Below, piece after piece: positions 18,201 to 59,803 of a stretch of DNA of 64,000 nt (position 1 is the first letter of the stretch; every line of letters starts with the position of its first letter). This DNA comes from Hesseltinella vesiculosa (lineage: Eukaryota; Mucoromycota; Mucoromycetes; Mucorales; Cunninghamellaceae), in NCBI GenBank assembly GCA_002104935.1, contig MCGT01000025.1:62001-126000 (forward strand), written 5' to 3'. The notes under the pieces are model-generated. The model worked only from the letters and a program-made list of their open reading frames with translations. It made no database searches and had not been told where the DNA came from. The position numbers and the translations under genes are program-made.

Positions 18201-20448
18201 ATGAACTCTTGGAAATTACCCGGAACAAAGAGTAAGATGAGAATATGACGCATGCGGATGGCAGATGAAAAAAAGGAAATAAAAAAATGGGGTTGATGAG
18301 GACAAGTAAAGGAGGATCCATAAACAACAAGAAGAAACAGAACAGACGATGAATAGCTTGGCCATGATGAGACAAGAGCCAGCGTGGTAAAGATGGGGAG
18401 CAAGATGACTCATCAAGCCTTTTGTAGAAAAAGAAGCCAAGGAACGAGAGGCCAAGGAACGAGAGGCCAAGGAAGCGGCGGCGGCGGCAGCAACGACGCT
18501 GGCCAATGTCTCATCACCTCTCAGCAATGGCCATTCATCCACCACCACCACGCCTCAGTTGACCTCGGGCACATCGACGCCTCGCACGTCCATGTCGTTG
18601 CCCCGCAGCGAGCCTCACTCCGGCATGTTATTGATCCGAGTGTGCGATGCTCGTGGTATAAGTGTGCCCAGTGATGTCACGCTGCCCAGCCCGCCTCCCT
18701 CACAGCCTTTGCCACCTCAACAACAGAGAAATCGGGACTCTCTGACAAGGAAACAGCATTGGTGGTTGCCGTATGTGGTGCTGGAATTTGACAAGAATGA
18801 GATTTTGGTCGATGCTCTGGCTGGTGACACACAAAATCCCATTTACCAGTACAGAGCTCATTTGTAAGCAAAAAAAAAAAAAAAAAAAAAAAAAAGGCAA
18901 GGGACTCACCCTTAAAATCAGTGATGTATCCAGAAGCTCGGATGTGACGATTTCCATGTATTTACGGCCCCCTCCCAACAAAGATCCCAAGCAGCAGCCT
19001 ACCGACTACTTTTTGGGCAGCGTCAAGCTCCAGCCCAACTTTGACTCGACCAGAATGGATGATCAAGTATTACAAATGACGGGTGGCACAGGCATGATCC
19101 ATGTCCAACTTTGCTATAAGCCTCAGCAGGTAAGAAGGCAAACGAGACGATCGGCTATTGACCGTCGTGTTTTTCCAGCAAGCTCAACCTATTGCGTTTG
19201 ACTCGTTTGTGTTGCTGCGGGTGATCGGCCGTGGCAGTTTTGGCAAGGTGTATGTGGTGCGCAAAAAGGATACAAACCGAATCTACGCAATGAAGGTGCT
19301 TCGCAAATCTCGTATTATTTCCCGTTCCGAGGTGACACATACCATGGCTGAAAAGACCGTGCTGGCCAAGATTCGGAATCCATTTATTGTGCCTTTGAAG
19401 TTTGCCTTCCAGAGCCCAGACAAGCTCTATTTGGTGCTCGCCTTTATTAATGGTGGCGAACTGTTCCACCATTTACAAAAAGAAGGTCGGTTCAATGAAG
19501 AGCGGTCGAGATTCTATACGGCCGAGCTGTTGTCAGCCCTGGAATGCCTCCATGATTTCAATGTGATTTATCGGTGAGTGGAAAAAACGGGGAAAGCCAC
19601 GTGGCTTTCCCCGAGGGCTGGCCCATGTTGGCCCCAAAAATAGCCACCACGTTTTTGATCTTTTCATTGGGCTGACTTTTCTTTTTTTTTTTTTTTTTCC
19701 CTTTAGAGATCTGAAACCCGAAAATATCTTGATCGATTACAATGGTCATATTGCATTGTGCGATTTTGGTCTGTGTAAACTGGATATGAAAGAAAATGAA
19801 CGCACCAATACGTTTTGTGGTACGCCGGAATACCTTGCCCCTGAATTGTTACTTGGCCAATCCTATCAAAAAATTGTCGATTGGTGGACCCTCGGGGTGT
19901 TGTTGTATGAGATGTTGACGGGCCTACCTCCCTTTTATGATGAAAATACCAATGAAATGTACCGCAAGATTTTACAAGATGAATTGCGTTTTCCCGATGA
20001 CATTACGGAAGATGCAAAGTCCTTGTTGAGAGGGGTAAGAAAAAAATTTTTTTTTTTTTCCTCCCCCTCACCTGACCCTCTTTTTTTTTTTTTCTTGACC
20101 GCTTTGTTGAACCAGTTACTTACTAGGGATCCTGTACAACGTCTAGGCTATAACGGGTCAACGGAAATCAAGAGCCATCCATTTTTTGCTTCTATTGATT
20201 GGAAATTGCTGATGCAGAAAAAATTACAGCCGCCGTTCAAGCCGTCGGTGGAAAATGCCTTTGATACATCCAACTTTGATGAGGAATTTACCTCGGAAGC
20301 GCCTTTAGAATCGGTAGTCGATGAATCCCAAATCTCTCGGACCATGCAAGAACAATTTGTCGGCTTCACCTACAATCCAGCCAATGATGGTGTGCTAGGG
20401 GAAAGCTATACGCCCTCGGGGGTCAGTGGAAGTCAGCCTCGTTGGTAG
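18201..20448 (+). CDS. SCH9: SCH9-family AGC kinase with C2 domain
   Basis: Ser/Thr kinase of the SCH9 family, a TORC1 effector controlling growth, ribosome synthesis and stress in fungi. Six exons: 18201-18231, 18428-18863, 18922-19129, 19179-19573, 19707-20034, 20116-20448; about 576 aa. The start MNSWKLPGTK resembles other SCH9 N-termini and joins in phase across a 196-nt intron to a KERE-repeat coiled stretch. A C2 domain follows (GMLLIRVCDARGI to VQLCYKP, ~residues 60-225). The kinase has GRGSFGKVY, AMKVLRKS, RDLKPENILIDYNGHIALCD, DFG, activation loop TNTFCGTPEYLAPELL and the AGC tail with hydrophobic motif QFVGFTYNP, the predicted TORC1 site Thr. YPK is less likely because of the C2 domain. 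An intron at 18864-18921 contains a 26-A run. The phosphodiesterase gene follows 480 bp downstream on the same strand. Confidence 0.93.
18437..18482 (+). repeat. Short in-frame tandem repeat in SCH9
   Basis: A 15-nt unit (AAGGAACGAGAGGCC) occurs twice in tandem, then in partial form, coding AKERE repeats followed by a GCG/GCA run (poly-Ala). Length variation here would stay in frame. Confidence 0.7.
18870..18895 (+). repeat. 26-bp poly(A) run inside a SCH9 intron
   Basis: Direct count from the sequence. It sits in the 58-nt intron between the two C2-domain exons and takes up almost half of it. Confidence 0.8.
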
Positions 20449-20928: not shown

Positions 20929-23327
20929 ATGGATTCAGCACAGTGTTCATTATTTTTGATAACACCTCAAGATACTTTATCACCTGTCTTTCCTTATATC
21001 GACATGCTACGCTCGGTATTTAAGCAGGGTAAGGGAAGAGGGTAGAGTGAAGTCTTTCAAAAGCAACCGATGAACCCTTTTTTATTGCCATGTGCGCACA
21101 TACACTTACTTGTTTATTTGGGGGGGGGTTTAGTGGGCGTAATACAGGACGACGATCTCTCGTTACGAAGAAAATACCCAAACAGTACTCTCTTTTTTTT
21201 GGATTTGGATTTATTCGACGACGATCAAGCTTCCATCAGCTCGTCGGGTTCCACCTGCACGTTTACGATGGATAATCGGCTGACCTGGGCAAAACGGATT
21301 ACCCAGTCCTTAGCTCATCACCCTGTCATTGGTAAGCGTCTTTCAAGCTGACTGTATCTCATGTTCTTCTTTAGTTTGTTCTTCTGAAACCAACAGCTCG
21401 TTCATGTTGGATTGCTTGCATGCGGGTGCTGCTGATTATCTTTTGAAGCCTTTGTATCTGCCTGTGATCCAAACATTATTCCTGGTAAGTCCCCTTTTTT
21501 TTTTTTTTTAATTCCATGTGTCCCCCCGTCTCTCCTTTTTTTTTTTATGATCCTACCATGGTTCTTTTTGCAAAACTTTTTCTAAATGTGCTCATTTTCT
21601 TTTGCCCTCCCACCAGAAATTGCATCGCCGACAAGAAACCGAATCTGCTCCAGCCGGACCAACGCCGTCCAGCAATCAAACCACCCCTCTAGACCTGTCC
21701 ACCTCCTCTCCTGCCAATGAACTGCATTTAGACGACGACTATGTGTTTCTGCAACACGATGACGTTCACCACCGTGTCAAGAACTTTGTTTCCAAAGATA
21801 ATCAGTCAGTGACCTCGGTCTAAAAGAAAATGGCGCACCTCCCTTCTTTACTAACCACCCTTTTTTCATTAAGATTGACCAAAGCCATGATGGATATCTA
21901 TGCCCCTCCTTTACCCTTTCCAGCCAAATATATACCTCTTTCAAGGTAGAGAAAAAGCAAAAAAAAAAAAAAAAAGACTCATCCCGCGTTTTTCAGCCGT
22001 CAAGCAGACGAACTCAAACAAAAATTGGACTCTTGGGATTTCTCTCCTTTTGATTATCATCAAGATGAATTGATTCATTGCGTGTATTTGATGTTTGAAA
22101 TGGCCATGGCTTCTCCTGATCTAGCCCACATCATCTGGTCGCAAGGTATGGAAAAAGGAGGACCGGTGAAAAAGTCTCATATTTTTTCGTCTAGACCAAT
22201 GGTACGATTTCATCATTGATTTGGCCAATGCATATCATGACGATAATCCTTATCACAACTTTGCCCATGCCGTGGACGTGATGCAATGCATGTATTACCT
22301 GCTGTGTCAATTGAACTGCTTCCCTCACAAGCAAAAGAACAAAAAACGCACGGCCGCTCGTCTGACCGGCAAACAGGTCTTCTCCATCCTTCTCTCGGCC
22401 ATCGGACACGATGCTGGTCACCCGGGGGTCAACAACATGTTCCTCATCAACTCAAGGACCCCTCTGGCTGTCATGTACAATGATCGCTCCGTGCTCGAAA
22501 GCCTGCATTCCATGACCTTGTTCCAACTGATCAAAAAACACCGCCTGGACCAGAATTGGACCCCAGACGACTATCAGCAATTCCGCCAAACCATCATCTC
22601 CAGCATCCTCGCCACCGACATGGCCCTCAACAATGACTATGTGTCCAAGTTCCGTCACGCCACCGCCGCCACCGACGACCCCATGCTGCTGTGCTCCGCC
22701 CTCATCAAATGTGCTGACATTAGCAACGTCACCCGTCCTTTTGCCCGTGGCCGCCAATGGGCCCTCCTGCTCGTCGAGGAATTTGCTTCGCAGGGCGATC
22801 TAGAAAAAGAACTGGGCATGCCCGTCCAACCCACCAACGACCGTACCAAAATCGTCCTGGAGGATTTCCAAATCAGTTTTATTCGCTTTGTTGCCTTGGA
22901 TCTGTTCAATGCGGTGGTGACCTGGCTGCCAGGTAAACGTGAAAAAAAAAAAAAGGTTGGCGTGACACGCCTGACCTCCTTTATTTTTTTAGAGTTGGGA
23001 TTTACTGTGGAACAGATGAAACAGAACTTGCAACAATGGGAATTCGAGAAACAACAACGGACATGTCAATCGTTGCCCACCACCACCTTTGCCAACACCA
23101 CCGCCGGCACCAAGCGTCGTCTCTCCTATTGCTTAGAAGCATCCACCCCACCTTCCTTGATCAACGGCTTTCCCACCTCAACCACCCCAGCCCCCACCTT
23201 TTCCAATTGTCACTTCCCAGACGACTCTGCTTCGAAAAAGTCTCGGTTTTCTCCAGCATCCTCCCCCACCCCGACCCTTTCCACCGCATCCACCGCATCC
23301 TCCACCTCGTCCTGTGTTCTCCAGTAA
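20929..23327 (+). CDS. Cyclic-nucleotide phosphodiesterase with N-terminal receiver-like domain
   Basis: Class I phosphodiesterase expected to hydrolyse cAMP. Eight exons: 20929-21028, 21134-21331, 21375-21484, 21617-21804, 21874-21945, 21997-22145, 22195-22932, 22993-23327; about 629 aa, all junctions in frame. Residues ~7-135 look like a response-regulator receiver: beta-1 SLFLITPQD, acidic QDDDLS, beta-3 STLFFLDLDL with phospho-acceptor candidate D57, beta-4 PVIVCSSE (S102/S103), beta-5 GAADYLLKP with K124. The beta-1 acidic pair is not intact. The catalytic domain has YHNFAH (H293, H297), HDAGHPGVNN (H344, D345), IKCADISNVTRP and the invariant Gln in LEDFQISFI. A basic insert (KQKNKKR) separates the first two metal motifs. 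The tail is Ser/Thr/Pro-rich. The arrangement matches Dictyostelium RegA; animal PDE8 is the other receiver-PDE relative. Confidence 0.88.
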
Positions 23328-53637: not shown

Positions 53638-56600
53638 ATGGGGAAAGCCAAAGAAAATCAAACGGATCTGACTGATGCAAAAGACATCAAGAGCTGTTTA
53701 CAAACACGTTACGCAAACCATCAGCTCTACACCAACGTTGGCACTCGTCACCTTATCGCTGTCAACCCATATAAAGCCTTAGCCTATAATGACGATCAAA
53801 CCAGTTTGGATTATGTAGCCATTTACAAGGATAGCCAGCACCAACTTCAGTTGGATCCTCACCTTTTTGACCTCATCAATCGAGCCTATTATTCCCTACG
53901 ACGCACTGGCGATGATCAACTGGTCATTTTAACGTAAGCTCCCCCCTTTTTTTTTTTATACATGCCCTTTTTCTTTAAACATTTTGTTTGTTCCTATTCA
54001 GCATAAGCTGGGTATTTTTTTTTTTTTTTCCCCTGTCTCCTCTCTTATCGCTGCCCCCCCCTTTTTTCTTTGTCTTCTTTATACCCTTGCCCTTCCCTAC
54101 CCTTTGTCCTTGCATGAATGCTCAACATTTTTCTTATTTCCCTGACATAGTGGTATTTCTGGCAGTGGCAAATCGACATTACGGCCCTTGATTCTCAAAC
54201 ATCTGGTTCGACTTGGCAGCCACAAAAAAGAAACCAAGGTTCAACAGCAACTTGTCCAGTCTCAATTGATCCTTGATGCTTTTGGTCAAGCTGCTACGCC
54301 CAATAACCGCACTCGGTCGCTTTTTGGTTACTATGGTGAAATCCAATTCAGCGAACGTGGTCGCCTTGTTGGTTGCAAAACTTTGCATTATTGCCTGGAC
54401 AAAAACCACGTGATTCGAACGGATGCACCCAACTTTGCCGTCTTTTATTATTTAATGGCTGCCCTGGACCCTCACGAACGCCAACTCCTCCAGCTGTCTT
54501 CTGATCCATTGCACTATCGCTATCTCAAGGTCGCTCGATCCTCGCTCCCTCTGACCTCTCAGGCCACCACCCAATATCAACAACTGCTTGTAGCGTTCAA
54601 ACTCTTGGGCATCCGCAAAGAACAGGTCGCTCGACTCCAACAATTGCTTGCTGCTCTCCTGCATCTGGGCAACTTGGTCTTCGTCGACCCTTCCCCCGCC
54701 TCTGCCAATGGTCAAGAAGCCGCCTACGTCAAAAACACCGAGATCTTGGAGCTCGTCGCCGACTTGCTGGGTGTCGATCCCCGTGCCTTGGAAAACGTCC
54801 TGACCTTCAAAACCACCATGATCCGACGCGACTTCACCACCCTGATCCTCAATGCTCAGCAAGCCGGCGAACAGCGGGACGAGCTTGTCAAGGTGCTGTA
54901 TTCGCTGCTCTTCTCCTGGCTCGTCGAACGCATCAACCGAAAAACCTGCCAGGATCAATTCTCTAACTACATCGGGGTGCTCGACTTCCCTGGCGCCCAG
55001 CTTCCTTCGCCTGCCGCCGGCTCCTTCCACGACTTTTGCGTCGGCTTGGCCAACGAACGCCTCCACGGCTTTTACCAACAACGTGTGCTGCAGTCCACCG
55101 CCGTTGAGCCCGCCGAAGCGCTCGACCTGCCATCCCTGCCCTCGGCTGCCGACTCACAAGCCTGCTTGGAACTGCTCACCCGGTCCTCCAAAGGCATCTG
55201 CACCATCCTCAATGACATGACGGACTCCGTCGACTCCGGCAAGCGCACGCTTTCCGACAACCATTTCATGGACTCGATCATCAAGTACAACAACCAGCAC
55301 GACTCCTTTTCCGTCAAAACCTCCTCCACCAGCGCCCGCCACTTTGCCATCAGCCACTATTCCGGTGCTGTCGCCTACGATCCTCGAGGCTTCTTGACCG
55401 CCAACAGCAACCAGCTCTCTGTTGACTTTGTCTCCTTGTTTCGGGGCAACGACGATACCTCGGCCTCCTGGAACACCTTGGTCGTCGAGCTCTTTTCCGA
55501 CGACATCCTTGCCACCAATGCCCACCCACGCCACCCCAACACCATCGCCGCTGCCCAACAATCGTCCAAGCCAGCACGTCATCCCTCTGTCCGCAAGAGT
55601 CTCCGTCGCAACCAGAACGCATCCAGCCCAGCCGAAAAAGAAAGCCCTGCCTCGTCCTCCTGCCTGACCCAACAGTTGCAGACCGCCCTGGACGAACTTT
55701 TCAGCTCGATCGAAGAAGCCACCCTGTGGTCTGTCCTTTGTCTCCAGCCCAATGATCAGCAAAACCCCACGCTCTTTGACAGTCGCCGTGTCCAACAACA
55801 ACTCGAGATCTTCCATGTCGCCTCCTTGGCTGAGCAAATGAAATATCTGTATGTTCAACATCTGCCACACGATCTTTTCTTGGATCGCTACGCACCTGTC
55901 TTCCGCTCACTTGCGCTAGATCCTCAACGTCTCCGCCGTGCCCTTTGTGACCAGGTTGTCCAAGCCTTTGGCTGGCAACATGAACAAGCCTTGGTTGGCA
56001 ATTATTCGGTAAGCCATCCTCCTCCTCCCCCCCCCCAAAAAAAAAGGAAGGGGGTTAAGGAGCGGCAAGAGGATTTGGAAACAATGAAAAAAAAAAAGTG
56101 GCATGTGTGAAAGGGGTTCTGAAACAATGACGATTGACTTTGTCTCCTTTTTTTTTTTTAGGTGCTGCTGGCAGAATCGGCTTGGGTGCAATTAGAAAAT
56201 CAACTGCGACAATTGGAAAAGGAAGAACAGCGACAAGACCGTGACCTCGTCAAACAAGGCTCCGCCGTCATTGAAAACAACATGGAAGTCATGTCGTCTT
56301 CAAGTTCACAACTACACCTGTCCAATGCCGCTGCCATGGCCACTGCCTCGGGTCTGCCAGCACCCGTCCAGCCTTTCAACAACACGGATGATCGCCGCTC
56401 CTTTTATTCGGAAGAAGAAATGCTCGACGACAATGCCCACGGAGGTGCCAGCGGTGGTCAATCCTTCTACGGCAGCTCAGACTATGATCCTTCCACTTTC
56501 AATACCTCAGACCCCAAGGCTCAACATCCGGCAATGTACTATCCCCAATACCAAGATCAGCCTGGAGCTCCTGTGGCTGAAGAAGAGGAAGAAGATGGCA

Positions 56601-59600
56601 AAAAGACGGTGTCCCGCCAACGTCGCCAATGGCTTTGGTTTGTGTGGGCTGTCACCTGGTGGATCCCAGGCCCATGTTTGCGCTGGTGTGGCCGCATGAA
56701 GCGCAAGGATATCCAGATTGCCTGGCGGGAAAAGGTGGCTCTTTGTTTTATCGTCTTTATCATGTGTGCCTTTGTGATTTGGTTCCTTGTTTTCTTTGGC
56801 GAATTGATCTGTCCTCATCAAGATGTCTTTGCCCCATCCGAACTTGCTAGCCACAGTGACAAGGACAAGGCCTATGTCTCGATCCGTGGCGAAGTCTTTG
56901 ACCTGACGTCCTTTGCTCCACGCCATTACCCGCCCAACATCATCCCCATGAACTCCATTTTATCTTATGGTGGCCAAGACGTCACTCCCTTGTTCCCTGT
57001 GCAGGTAAAAAAAAAAAAAAAAAAACCAATGTTCTGATGTCGCTCATGACAGGTGTCGGCGCTCTGTAATGGCATCACTGGGAACGTGTCTCCGTTTGTG
57101 TCGCTGGACTATCAAGTCAACTACACCGATAAGAACGCCCAGTACCATGACTTCCGCTACTCGACGGACGTGTACAATGCCAACTGGTATTATGATCAGC
57201 TCACCATGCTTCGACAGCAATACAAGATCGGCAACATGGGCTACGACTTGCACACCATCAGTGCCCAAGCAAACGCAGCCACCAACGTCAACGGCATCAA
57301 TACCATCCGCAACTGGGCCATCATCGACGGCCGGGTCTATGACATGACCTCGTACATCCTGGGCGGCCGCTATACCAGTGCACCTCCTGGTCAGGCTGTG
57401 CCCGGCAATGTCGACACCAACTTCATGGAAGATCAGGTGGTCTCCCTCTTCCGCCAATTTTCAGGCACGGACATCACCGACCAGTTCCGCCAGCTCAACC
57501 TGGACCCGGCTGTGCGCTACAATCAGATCGTGTGCCTGCGCAATCTCTTTTATGTCGGCATCGTCGACACCCGCAATTCAGCCAAGTGCCAGTTCTCCAC
57601 CTACCTTCTGCTGATCGTGACCTGTTTGATGGCCAGCGTGATTCTCTTCAAATTCTTGGCCGCTCTGCGCGTCGGCTCACCCCGCTCGCCTGAGGAACAC
57701 GACAAGTTTGTGATCTGCCAAGTGACCTGCTACACCGAAGACGAAGAATCGCTGCGCCTGACGGTGGACTCCATCGCCAAGCTGACCTACGACGACAAGC
57801 GCAAGCTGCTATTTATTATCTGTGACGGTATGATTGTCGGCAGCGGCAACGATCGTCCCACGCCCCGCATTGTGCTCGATATTCTTGGGGTGGATCCTCA
57901 AGTCGACCCGGAGCCGCTGTCGTTCCTCTCTGTCGGTGAGGGCCAGCGTCAACACAACATGGGCAAGGTCTACTCGGGCCTGTATGAAGTCGGCGGCCAT
58001 GTGGTGCCGTACCTGGTGGTCGTCAAGTGCGGCAAGCCCTCCGAGCGCCAGAAACCCGGCAATCGCGGTAAGCGCGACAGTCAGCTGGTGCTGATGCAAT
58101 TCCTCAACCGGGTCCACTTTGACGCGCCCATGAACCCCCTCCAGCTCGAGATCTTCCACCAGATGAAAAACGTCATTGGCGTCAACCCCAGCTTTTACGA
58201 ATTTGTGCTCATGGTCGATGCCGACACCGAGGTGATGCCCGATGGCCTCAACAACCTTGTGTCGTCGGCTGTCCACGACTCCAAGATCATCGGCATCTGT
58301 GGCGAAACCACCTTGGCCAACGAAAAGGACACCTGGGTCACCATGATCCAAGTCTACGAGTACTTTGTCTCTCATCACATGATCAAGGCCTTTGAATCGC
58401 TGTTCTCCTCCGTCAGTTGTTTGCCTGGCTGCTTCACCATGTACCGGGTTCGCACCGTCGATGGCAAACGGCCTCTGTTTATCAGCAACGAAGTCATCAG
58501 TGACTACTCCATCAATGAGGTCGAGACCCTCCACCAAAAGAACCTGCTGCACCTCGGCGAAGATCGGTATCTGACCACACTCCTGCTCAAGCACTTCAGC
58601 AACTTCAAGACCAAGTTCACCGCCGATGCTCAGTGCCGCACCAACGCACCCGACCTCTGGAGTGTGCTGGTGTCGCAGCGCCGCCGCTGGATCAACTCGA
58701 CCATCCACAACCTGGGTGAGCTCATCTTCTTGCCTCGGCTGTGTGGCTTTTGCTGTTTCTCCATGCGCTTTGTGGTCATGCTGGACCTGATCAGCACCTT
58801 GGTGATGCCTGCCCTTGTCGGCTATCTTGTTTACCTGATCTACCAGATCGCCACATCTACCGATTCTGTGCCTATCATCTCCATTGCCACCATTGCTGGC
58901 GTCTATGGTCTCCAGGCGATCCTGTTTGTCATCAAGCGCAAGTGGGAGTATGTCATCTGGATGGTGGTGTCGATTTTTGCCATCCCGGTCTTTTGGTTCT
59001 ACATTCCCATCTACTCTTACTGGCACTTTGATGACTTTTCCTGGGGCAACACGCGAATTGTGATGGGCGACAAGGGCAAGAAGATCCGTGTGCAAGAAGA
59101 AGGTCATTTTGATCCTCGCTCCATCCCGGCCATGACCTGGTCGGAATACGAAAAAACCATCCTGGCGGATGAATGGAACAATGGCTTCAACGACAACATG
59201 TCGCAGGCCAGTAGCACCGGCTACACCAACTACTCGGCCTCGCGCTACATGAACAACGGCAACAACAGCTCCGGTCGCCTCCCCGACTACATGAGCGACA
59301 GCATGAGTGCCCATTATACCTTGAACAACCCCAGCCTGCCCAACAACAACAACAACAACAACAACCATGCCAGCAGTCTCGGCCTCTCGGGTCGCACCCA
59401 CTCTGGCTTCTTCACCATGGATGGCAGCATGATGATGCCCGGCAATGCTTCGGCACCCATGGTGCCTCCTCCACCTCCCATGCCATCTTATGACCGTCCT
59501 GGCACACCTGCCGGCGACCTTCAGAGCCGTTACTCGATGCACTCCATGTCCAATGCCATGCCACCGTCGTCTGCTAGCCGTGCCAACAGCCGCCAATCGC

Positions 59601-59803
59601 TGGCCTTGGAAGCCGATGATACCCACCCTCGCAACGAAGACCTCTTGGAAGAAATCCAGCGTATCTTGCGTTCCTCTGATCTCACCCAAATCACAAAGAA
59701 ACAAGTCCGTGAACAGCTTGAGCAAACCTTTGGTGTCTCCATGGCCTCTCGCAAAAATTACATCAATGCCTGTATAGAAGATATCCTCCAAGGCCGACTC
59801 TGA
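53638..59803 (+). CDS. Chitin synthase with N-terminal myosin motor-like domain (class V/VII type)
   Basis: Membrane enzyme adding GlcNAc from UDP-GlcNAc to chitin for the cell wall. Four exons: 53638-53933, 54151-56008, 56162-57004, 57053-59803; about 1915 aa. Residues ~1-720 are a myosin motor-like domain with P-loop GISGSGKST (100-108), but switch I reads NNRTRSLFG (150-158) and switch II VLDFPGAQ (375-382), so key Ser/Arg/Glu residues are missing. Two membrane segments lie at ~875-893 and ~910-933, then a cytochrome b5-like region. The catalytic core has MVDADTEV (~1388), LGEDRYLTTLL (~1502) and QRRRW (1541-1545), followed by membrane helices, an Asn8 run and a C-terminal DEK_C domain (LLEEIQRILRSSDLTQITKK). 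Complete and intact. Known motor-chitin synthases move to or dwell at hyphal tips. Confidence 0.95.
59342..59365 (+). repeat. (AAC)8 coding repeat, poly-Asn in chitin synthase
   Basis: Eight AAC codons in tandem, in the low-complexity linker before the DEK_C domain. Confidence 0.85.

Follow-up and report, generated by a model that had tools for sequence, protein, structure and literature searches.

Can a histidine-kinase phosphorelay act directly on a cyclic nucleotide phosphodiesterase in a fungus? The question is raised by a gene at positions 20929..23327 (+ strand, as are all features below) of a 64,000-nucleotide stretch of the genome of Hesseltinella vesiculosa, a member of the Mucorales in the family Cunninghamellaceae (contig MCGT01000025.1), hereafter the window, whose product carries a receiver-like domain in front of a class I phosphodiesterase. 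An initial annotation, made from the sequence alone, had proposed that a histidine-kinase relay could control cAMP breakdown here; such control stays conjectural, and the protein is without the two acids that bind Mg2+. We propose instead, as the most likely reading, that the protein is a fungal Pde2-type phosphodiesterase bearing a docked regulatory pseudo-receiver. Here we demonstrate the gene structure, the predicted fold of an orthologue, the pattern of residues and the spread over several fungal phyla.

Receiver fold of the N-terminal domain

The receiver-fold domain comprises about residues 1-144 (20929..21640; exons 1-3 and the start of exon 4), as delimited by Pfam, profiles and the fold model. 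The Pfam scan suggested by the initial annotation, run on residues 1-145, revealed Response_reg (PF00072) at an E-value of 2.3e-5, with an aligned stretch of residues 85-128 only and a score of 24.9 bits, which fails the gathering score of 30.2 bits. Across the family, Response_reg was matched at E<=0.01 in 32 of 34 members scanned (best 3.5e-9), and a family profile searched against the PDB found the ARR1 receivers at E 1.7e-9, D, S and K being aligned to their counterparts. The predicted fold of P0001, a 68% identical orthologue, is that of a (beta-alpha)5 CheY-like receiver, which bears out the receiver-like fold noticed at the outset and was also the check on whether the predicted N-terminal structure might be something else. 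Fold searches with the domain listed 50 matches each, all receiver or receiver-like by title; the N-domains of CpaE and TadZ, which are receiver-like, were among them. Nothing in the viral structure library reached E<=0.001, some of the weaker matches being receivers, and an Rfam scan of the 64-kb window gave no match. The model and the profiles confirm a predicted receiver fold in front of the class I phosphodiesterase.

Active-site residues

Five residues make up the active site of a receiver: an acidic pair (DD) for Mg2+, T and K as ligands of the phosphoryl oxygens, and D as acceptor of the phosphate. A domain lacking any one of them is defined as a pseudo-receiver (PMC12632262). In the window protein, D57 (21202..21204), S102 (21380..21382) and K124 (21446..21448), equivalents of the phospho-acceptor Asp, the conserved Thr/Ser and the conserved Lys, respectively, were found in translation and alignment exactly where the initial annotation had placed them, with Tyr121 at K-3. 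Its caution that the beta-1 acidic pair was altered, and the domain perhaps a pseudo-receiver, was well founded: the end of beta-1, the position of the Mg2+-binding pair in true receivers, is T12-P13 (20962..20967), and both acids are missing. Because DD is lacking, the domain is a pseudo-receiver by the above definition, and the window protein does not possess the complete phosphorylation site of RegA-type enzymes.

Residue tables were drawn up for 198 of 238 rows, 40 being dropped where the N-terminal cutting motif was absent or too early; rows, those from unlabelled metagenomes included, were assigned to groups by hand according to name, place in the tree and similarity, and fractions count the rows having a letter at that position. 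In Mucorales group 1, which includes the window protein, position 57 is D in 50, E in 7 and Q in 1 of 58 rows, with S102 in 62/63 and K124 in 51/64; an acid occurs at position 12 in 2/55 and at 13 in 1/55. A second group, of Mucorales and Umbelopsidales, has D57 in 33/33, S in 31/33 and K in 33/33, and an acid at 12 in 3/30 and at 13 in 13/30. The Glomeromycota carry D57, S and K in 9/9 rows each and an acid at 12 in 8/9 and at 13 in 0/9, and all 4/4 rows from Calcarisporiella, Jimgerdemannia and two Dimargaritales combine D12, D57, S and K. For Mortierellomycota the counts are D57 23/23, S 22/23 and K 23/23; only two rows have letters in beta-1, one of them Asp. Ascomycota have an acid at 12 in 54/54 and at 13 in 18/54 rows, D57 in 44/59 and K at 124 in 0/63; S102 was not scored there, owing to inserts at that site. 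When the 124 columns are ranked by conservation over 64 non-redundant rows from outside Ascomycota, D57, S102 and K124 take ranks 7, 5 and 11, and positions 12 and 13 come near the bottom (ranks 110 and 91).

Only one of the 198 rows unites DD with D57 and K, namely P0111 (Fennellomyces sp.), which has the Ser too and is thus a candidate true phospho-receiver phosphodiesterase as judged from its residues. Since its sister rows P0092 and P0095 carry Asp-Gly at the acidic-pair positions, the pair of P0111 is possibly a reversion.

An acid at D+2 (D59) is present in 120/128 non-ascomycete rows (by group 54/58, 29/33, 9/9, 5/5 and 23/23), against 24/59 ascomycete rows and 2/10 receivers of the H. 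vesiculosa genome, read by eye; the rows being related, we treat this as a lead rather than a test. The residue at K-3 is aromatic in groups 1 and 2 (64/64 and 33/33), in Glomeromycota (9/9) and in further rows (5/5), and is Val in 23/23 Mortierellomycota and 58/63 Ascomycota rows. The alpha4-beta5-alpha5 face has the conserved residues G117, P125, T133, F135, L136 and R140 (55/64), and Cys113 is conserved in 57/64 rows.

Gene structure

Eight exons (20929-21028, 21134-21331, 21375-21484, 21617-21804, 21874-21945, 21997-22145, 22195-22932 and 22993-23327) and seven GT-AG introns give an open 629-amino-acid protein ending exactly at 23327, so that the limits first assigned to the gene were exact and a single fused frame was recovered. 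Introns 1 (21029..21133) and 2 (21332..21374; 43 nucleotides) lie within the receiver domain, both in phase 1, and the intron at 22933-22992 interrupts the PDEase_I catalytic core. The seven introns fall after residues 33.33, 99.33, 136.0, 198.67, 222.67, 272.33 and 518.33. P0008, a second H. vesiculosa phosphodiesterase and a paralogue, has introns after residues 39.33, 98.33, 135.0, 203.67, 226.67, 276.33 and 537.33, and all seven pairs agree in phase and alignment column; of the common introns, two interrupt the receiver domain and one lies near its end. Three additional introns in the catalytic part of P0008 are absent from the window gene. The database protein P0008 is exactly encoded at its locus by a single path of predicted splicing, which was found by script. 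Because intron columns and phases are conserved between the paralogues, the receiver exons and the catalytic exons very probably form one gene; at the level of sequence, this comparison was the check on the proviso, made with the initial annotation, that the first exons might belong to a separate transcript. Among the non-redundant homologue rows having letters there, the start Met is the same in 50/58 and a Cys stands at position 6 in 52/58.

The closest orthologue among the best 120 of 1920 relatives is P0001 from Gongronella butleri (68% identity over 97%), and no near-100% H. vesiculosa entry was found among these 120. As the best listed match is only 68% identical, the public protein set seems to lack the window gene while containing its paralogue P0008.

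Catalytic domain and the fungal Pde2 family

The PDEase_I (PF00233) catalytic core comprises residues 292-526 (22251..23015; E 4.1e-72) and scores 243.2 bits against a cut-off of 24.8; with positions 1-237 of the 238-column profile covered, it is a complete catalytic HD domain, and the translation contains the HNFAH and GHDAGHPG motifs. The complete class I enzyme reported at the outset, joined to the front domain through a linker, is therewith upheld, and the protein is a phosphodiesterase that probably acts on cAMP. Between the two domains, at about residues 145-291 (21641..22250) as delimited by Pfam and the model, lie the linker and the first helices of the catalytic region; no PAS or other Pfam domain was listed there at E<=10, although few matches weaker than about 0.1 survive the HMMER filters.

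By sequence, the best PDB match to the catalytic part is the yeast enzyme caPDE2 (PDB 6cpt, 6cpu). The same protein is the best Foldseek match by fold, with 621-629 aligned columns against 340-391 for the remaining 48 rows of the list. That nearly whole-chain alignment has an rmsd of 19.2 A, which indicates that the domains are placed differently in caPDE2 and in the model. Neither profile aligned the N-domain of caPDE2 by sequence, one stretch scoring -2.2 bits. The 50 listed rows of the VIA whole-length fold comparison were filled by catalytic domains, caPDE2 not among them, so this comparison is uninformative on the N-domain. The initial annotation had held that yeast PDE2 lacks the receiver-like segment; the Foldseek result contradicts this and the ascomycete profile matches described below make it unlikely, although the point is not finally settled. 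As far as its sequence tells, the window protein belongs to the fungal Pde2 family, caPDE2 being the nearest solved catalytic domain and ascomycete relatives sharing the N-terminal domain.

Distribution and phylogeny

Full-length receiver-phosphodiesterase fusions are predicted in many genera, and precomputed PF00072 and PF00233 assignments coincide in 25 of the best 120 of the 1920 relatives. The best 120 of 1077 relatives in a third search came from Mortierellomycota, Glomeromycota, Endogonales, Dimargaritales, Tremellomycetes and Pezizomycotina, the last with at least two proteins named BcPDE2. The Pfam scan detected Response_reg, though below cut-off, in 4/4 N-termini (Mortierella-type, E 0.01; Dimargaris, 3.4e-4; Funneliformis, 5.5e-6; Jimgerdemannia, 5.1e-4), but in 0/3 ascomycete N-termini. 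The ascomycete claim rests for that reason on a family profile, A2, which was built without ascomycetes and matches 63/63 ascomycete N-termini and 0/370 shuffled sequences at E<=1e-3, the database size being set to 72; profile-profile comparison of A2 with the ascomycete N-termini gave a probability of 98.4 and an E-value of 4.1e-15 over 140 columns. None of 11 Tremellomycetes-type rows matched A2, and we therefore claim nothing for Basidiomycota. Four Tremellomycetes proteins (P0163, P0168, P0179 and P0215), unmatched by the profile, have long N-termini with short stretches that recall receivers by eye. A region search with P0112 returned 6 proteins only, all from Glomeromycota. In P0121 (Diversispora eburnea) the phosphodiesterase is predicted to be fused to a PF00928 domain, perhaps through a fused gene model.

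Within the H. vesiculosa genome a receiver domain is present at three of five phosphodiesterase loci, namely the window gene, L035 (which encodes P0008) and L034. The other two, L032 (G000:C45) and L033 (G000:C7), encode class I phosphodiesterases that gave no receiver match with our query sequences or with A2, which is not proof of absence.

The catalytic-domain tree was built by a quick method from 70 rows (4 of 74 were dropped for a missing motif) and rooted by hand on Ascomycota; 24 of its 67 inner branches are open. The window protein pairs with P0001 (SH-aLRT 99) in an orthologue clade of six rows (100), itself inside a Mucorales clade of 32 rows (100). Given that root, a 49-row clade of Mucorales and Umbelopsidales (100) excludes the lineages in which D12 is retained (Glomeromycota, Calcarisporiella, Endogonales and Dimargaritales), and the simplest reading would be that D12 was lost within this clade. 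Since the front domain recurs in relatives from several fungal phyla, the architecture looks like an old and little-noticed control part rather than a peculiarity of one species.

Possible function of the N-terminal domain

We envisage that the Pde2-type phosphodiesterase inherited its N-terminal pseudo-receiver from an early fungal ancestor. The domain retains a receiver fold, D, S and K from the active site and a strongly conserved alpha4-beta5-alpha5 face, but not the acids that hold Mg2+; this face is proposed as the docking surface because its residues are conserved, and through it the domain would most likely bind either the catalytic part or another protein. In this way it would control how active or stable the enzyme is, or where it is located, with no efficient phosphotransfer from a Ypd1 relay, D, S and K serving as a structural hydrogen-bond or charge network or as a weak switch. 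Several findings sit awkwardly with such docking. D57, S102, K124 and the aromatic at K-3 are kept beyond the needs of a pure scaffold, and bacterial pseudo-receivers are described as keeping D, T and K each in only about 65% (PMC12632262). Any contact between the domains is putative, the linker (150-189) having low confidence in the joint model, and caPDE2 does not place its domains alike.

These kept residues speak for a RegA-like enzyme, in which D57 would receive phosphate from a histidine-kinase/Ypd1 relay and thereby switch on cAMP breakdown, perhaps slowly and with D59 aiding Mg2+ binding. The H. vesiculosa genome has 15 exon-wise Response_reg matches, two cyclase matches and one HPt match, in an exon reading HFLKGSSAAIGL, which we take to be the Ypd1 phospho-His motif. 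The frequency of the D+2 acid outside Ascomycota, compared with other receivers of the same genome, points the same way, although these rows share ancestry, few receivers were compared and fewer than half of the ascomycete rows are acidic there. Loss of DD need not wholly abolish phosphorylation (PMC12632262). Against such a switch stand the absence of both acids from the window protein, the poor conservation of positions 12 and 13 and the single row (P0111) with DD, D57 and K, and we consider it unlikely, if a serious contender. To a broader scenario we lend slightly less credence still: the ancestral Pde2 enzyme may have been RegA-like and switched by a phosphorelay, its site then eroding by lineage. 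Mucorales would have lost the acidic pair, Pezizomycotina the Lys and yeasts the sequence resemblance, whereas Glomeromycota, Endogonales and Dimargaritales retain D12, D57, S and K and Fennellomyces P0111 has all five; in Mucoromycota the D+2 acid may permit a slow Asp switch. If this were true, a Ypd1 relay would speak directly to cAMP in Mucoromycota.

Control independent of D57, by a ligand, by redox state or by Ser/Thr phosphorylation, would suit the conserved Cys6 and Cys113, and such mechanisms are known for bacterial pseudo-receivers (PMC12632262); it leaves the conservation of D, S and K unexplained, and we think it rather improbable. That the N-terminal fold is a generic alpha/beta resemblance is very hard to credit. 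The window protein alone falls under the gathering score and Pfam found nothing in the three ascomycete N-termini, but the family-wide Response_reg matches, the ARR1 profile match with its residues in register and the titles of the structural matches rule out a chance likeness to receivers. Equally far-fetched is a misread gene model: intron 2 is very short and the model is predicted from sequence, but the corresponding P0008 intron is also short (46 nucleotides), full-length fusions recur in many genera, and the shared columns and phases of all seven introns speak strongly against a separate transcript for the receiver exons.

Comparison with known systems

Dictyostelium RegA is a response regulator with a cAMP phosphodiesterase output that is activated by a phosphorelay (PMC3783435), and RegA-like proteins with receiver and phosphodiesterase occur in Physarum (PMC4758236). 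RegA, known here by description, shares with the window protein a receiver followed by a class I phosphodiesterase in one chain. It differs in that the window receiver is without the acidic pair, and because of this loss phosphorelay control would not be expected to be efficient. PDE8A and PDE8B combine an N-terminal REC of little-known function with a cAMP-specific class I catalytic domain (PMC8880502, PMC13095499), an arrangement like that of the window protein when compared by description. PDE8 also carries a PAS domain between the two, although the splice form PDE8A2 is without it (PMC13095499), whereas none was listed in the window protein.

More similar are caPDE2, the nearest solved structure both in catalytic sequence and in a fold alignment of almost full length, but with an N-domain too diverged for sequence matching, and the ascomycete Pde2-type enzymes. 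The N-termini of the latter match the domain profile but differ in keeping the first acid throughout and D57 in most rows, and in having no Lys at 124. A 2025 review places most fungal pseudo-receivers in Rim15, whose pseudo-receiver is, as far as its authors know, the only one in fungi to have been characterised in print (PMC12632262). Rim15 likewise attaches a fungal pseudo-receiver to a signalling enzyme; its partner is a protein kinase and the D of ascomycete Rim15 is mostly Glu, whereas the window protein keeps D and loses the acidic pair. Among the titles and abstract openings listed by searches of the open-access literature, subscription papers not being covered, we found no description of the receiver-phosphodiesterase architecture in fungi. 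The fusion as such is known from RegA, Physarum and PDE8; its fungal pseudo-receiver form appears to be new.

Identification of the N-terminal domain of fungal Pde2-type enzymes as a pseudo-receiver conserved in several phyla would provide a fold, a definite surface and five residues through which its role in control can be studied, and makes testable whether a Ypd1 relay touches cAMP directly in any fungus. Natural variants are at hand for comparison: P0111 has all five residues, the window protein has three of them, and the ascomycete rows are without the Lys. Keeping D, S and K while releasing the metal site is the reverse of what is seen in aspartate-less receivers.

Neighbouring genes

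Just upstream of the phosphodiesterase gene, positions 19567-20445 encode the C-terminal part of an AGC-type protein kinase with a Pkinase_C domain; some 480 bp separate its end from the start of the phosphodiesterase. About 20 kb away, 573-1259 contains an exon for a G-protein alpha subunit (E 2.8e-84), possibly a gene of the cAMP pathway. At 54146-59800 a myosin head in one frame is followed by Chitin_synth_2 and DEK_C in another, and these perhaps constitute a single myosin-motor chitin synthase gene.
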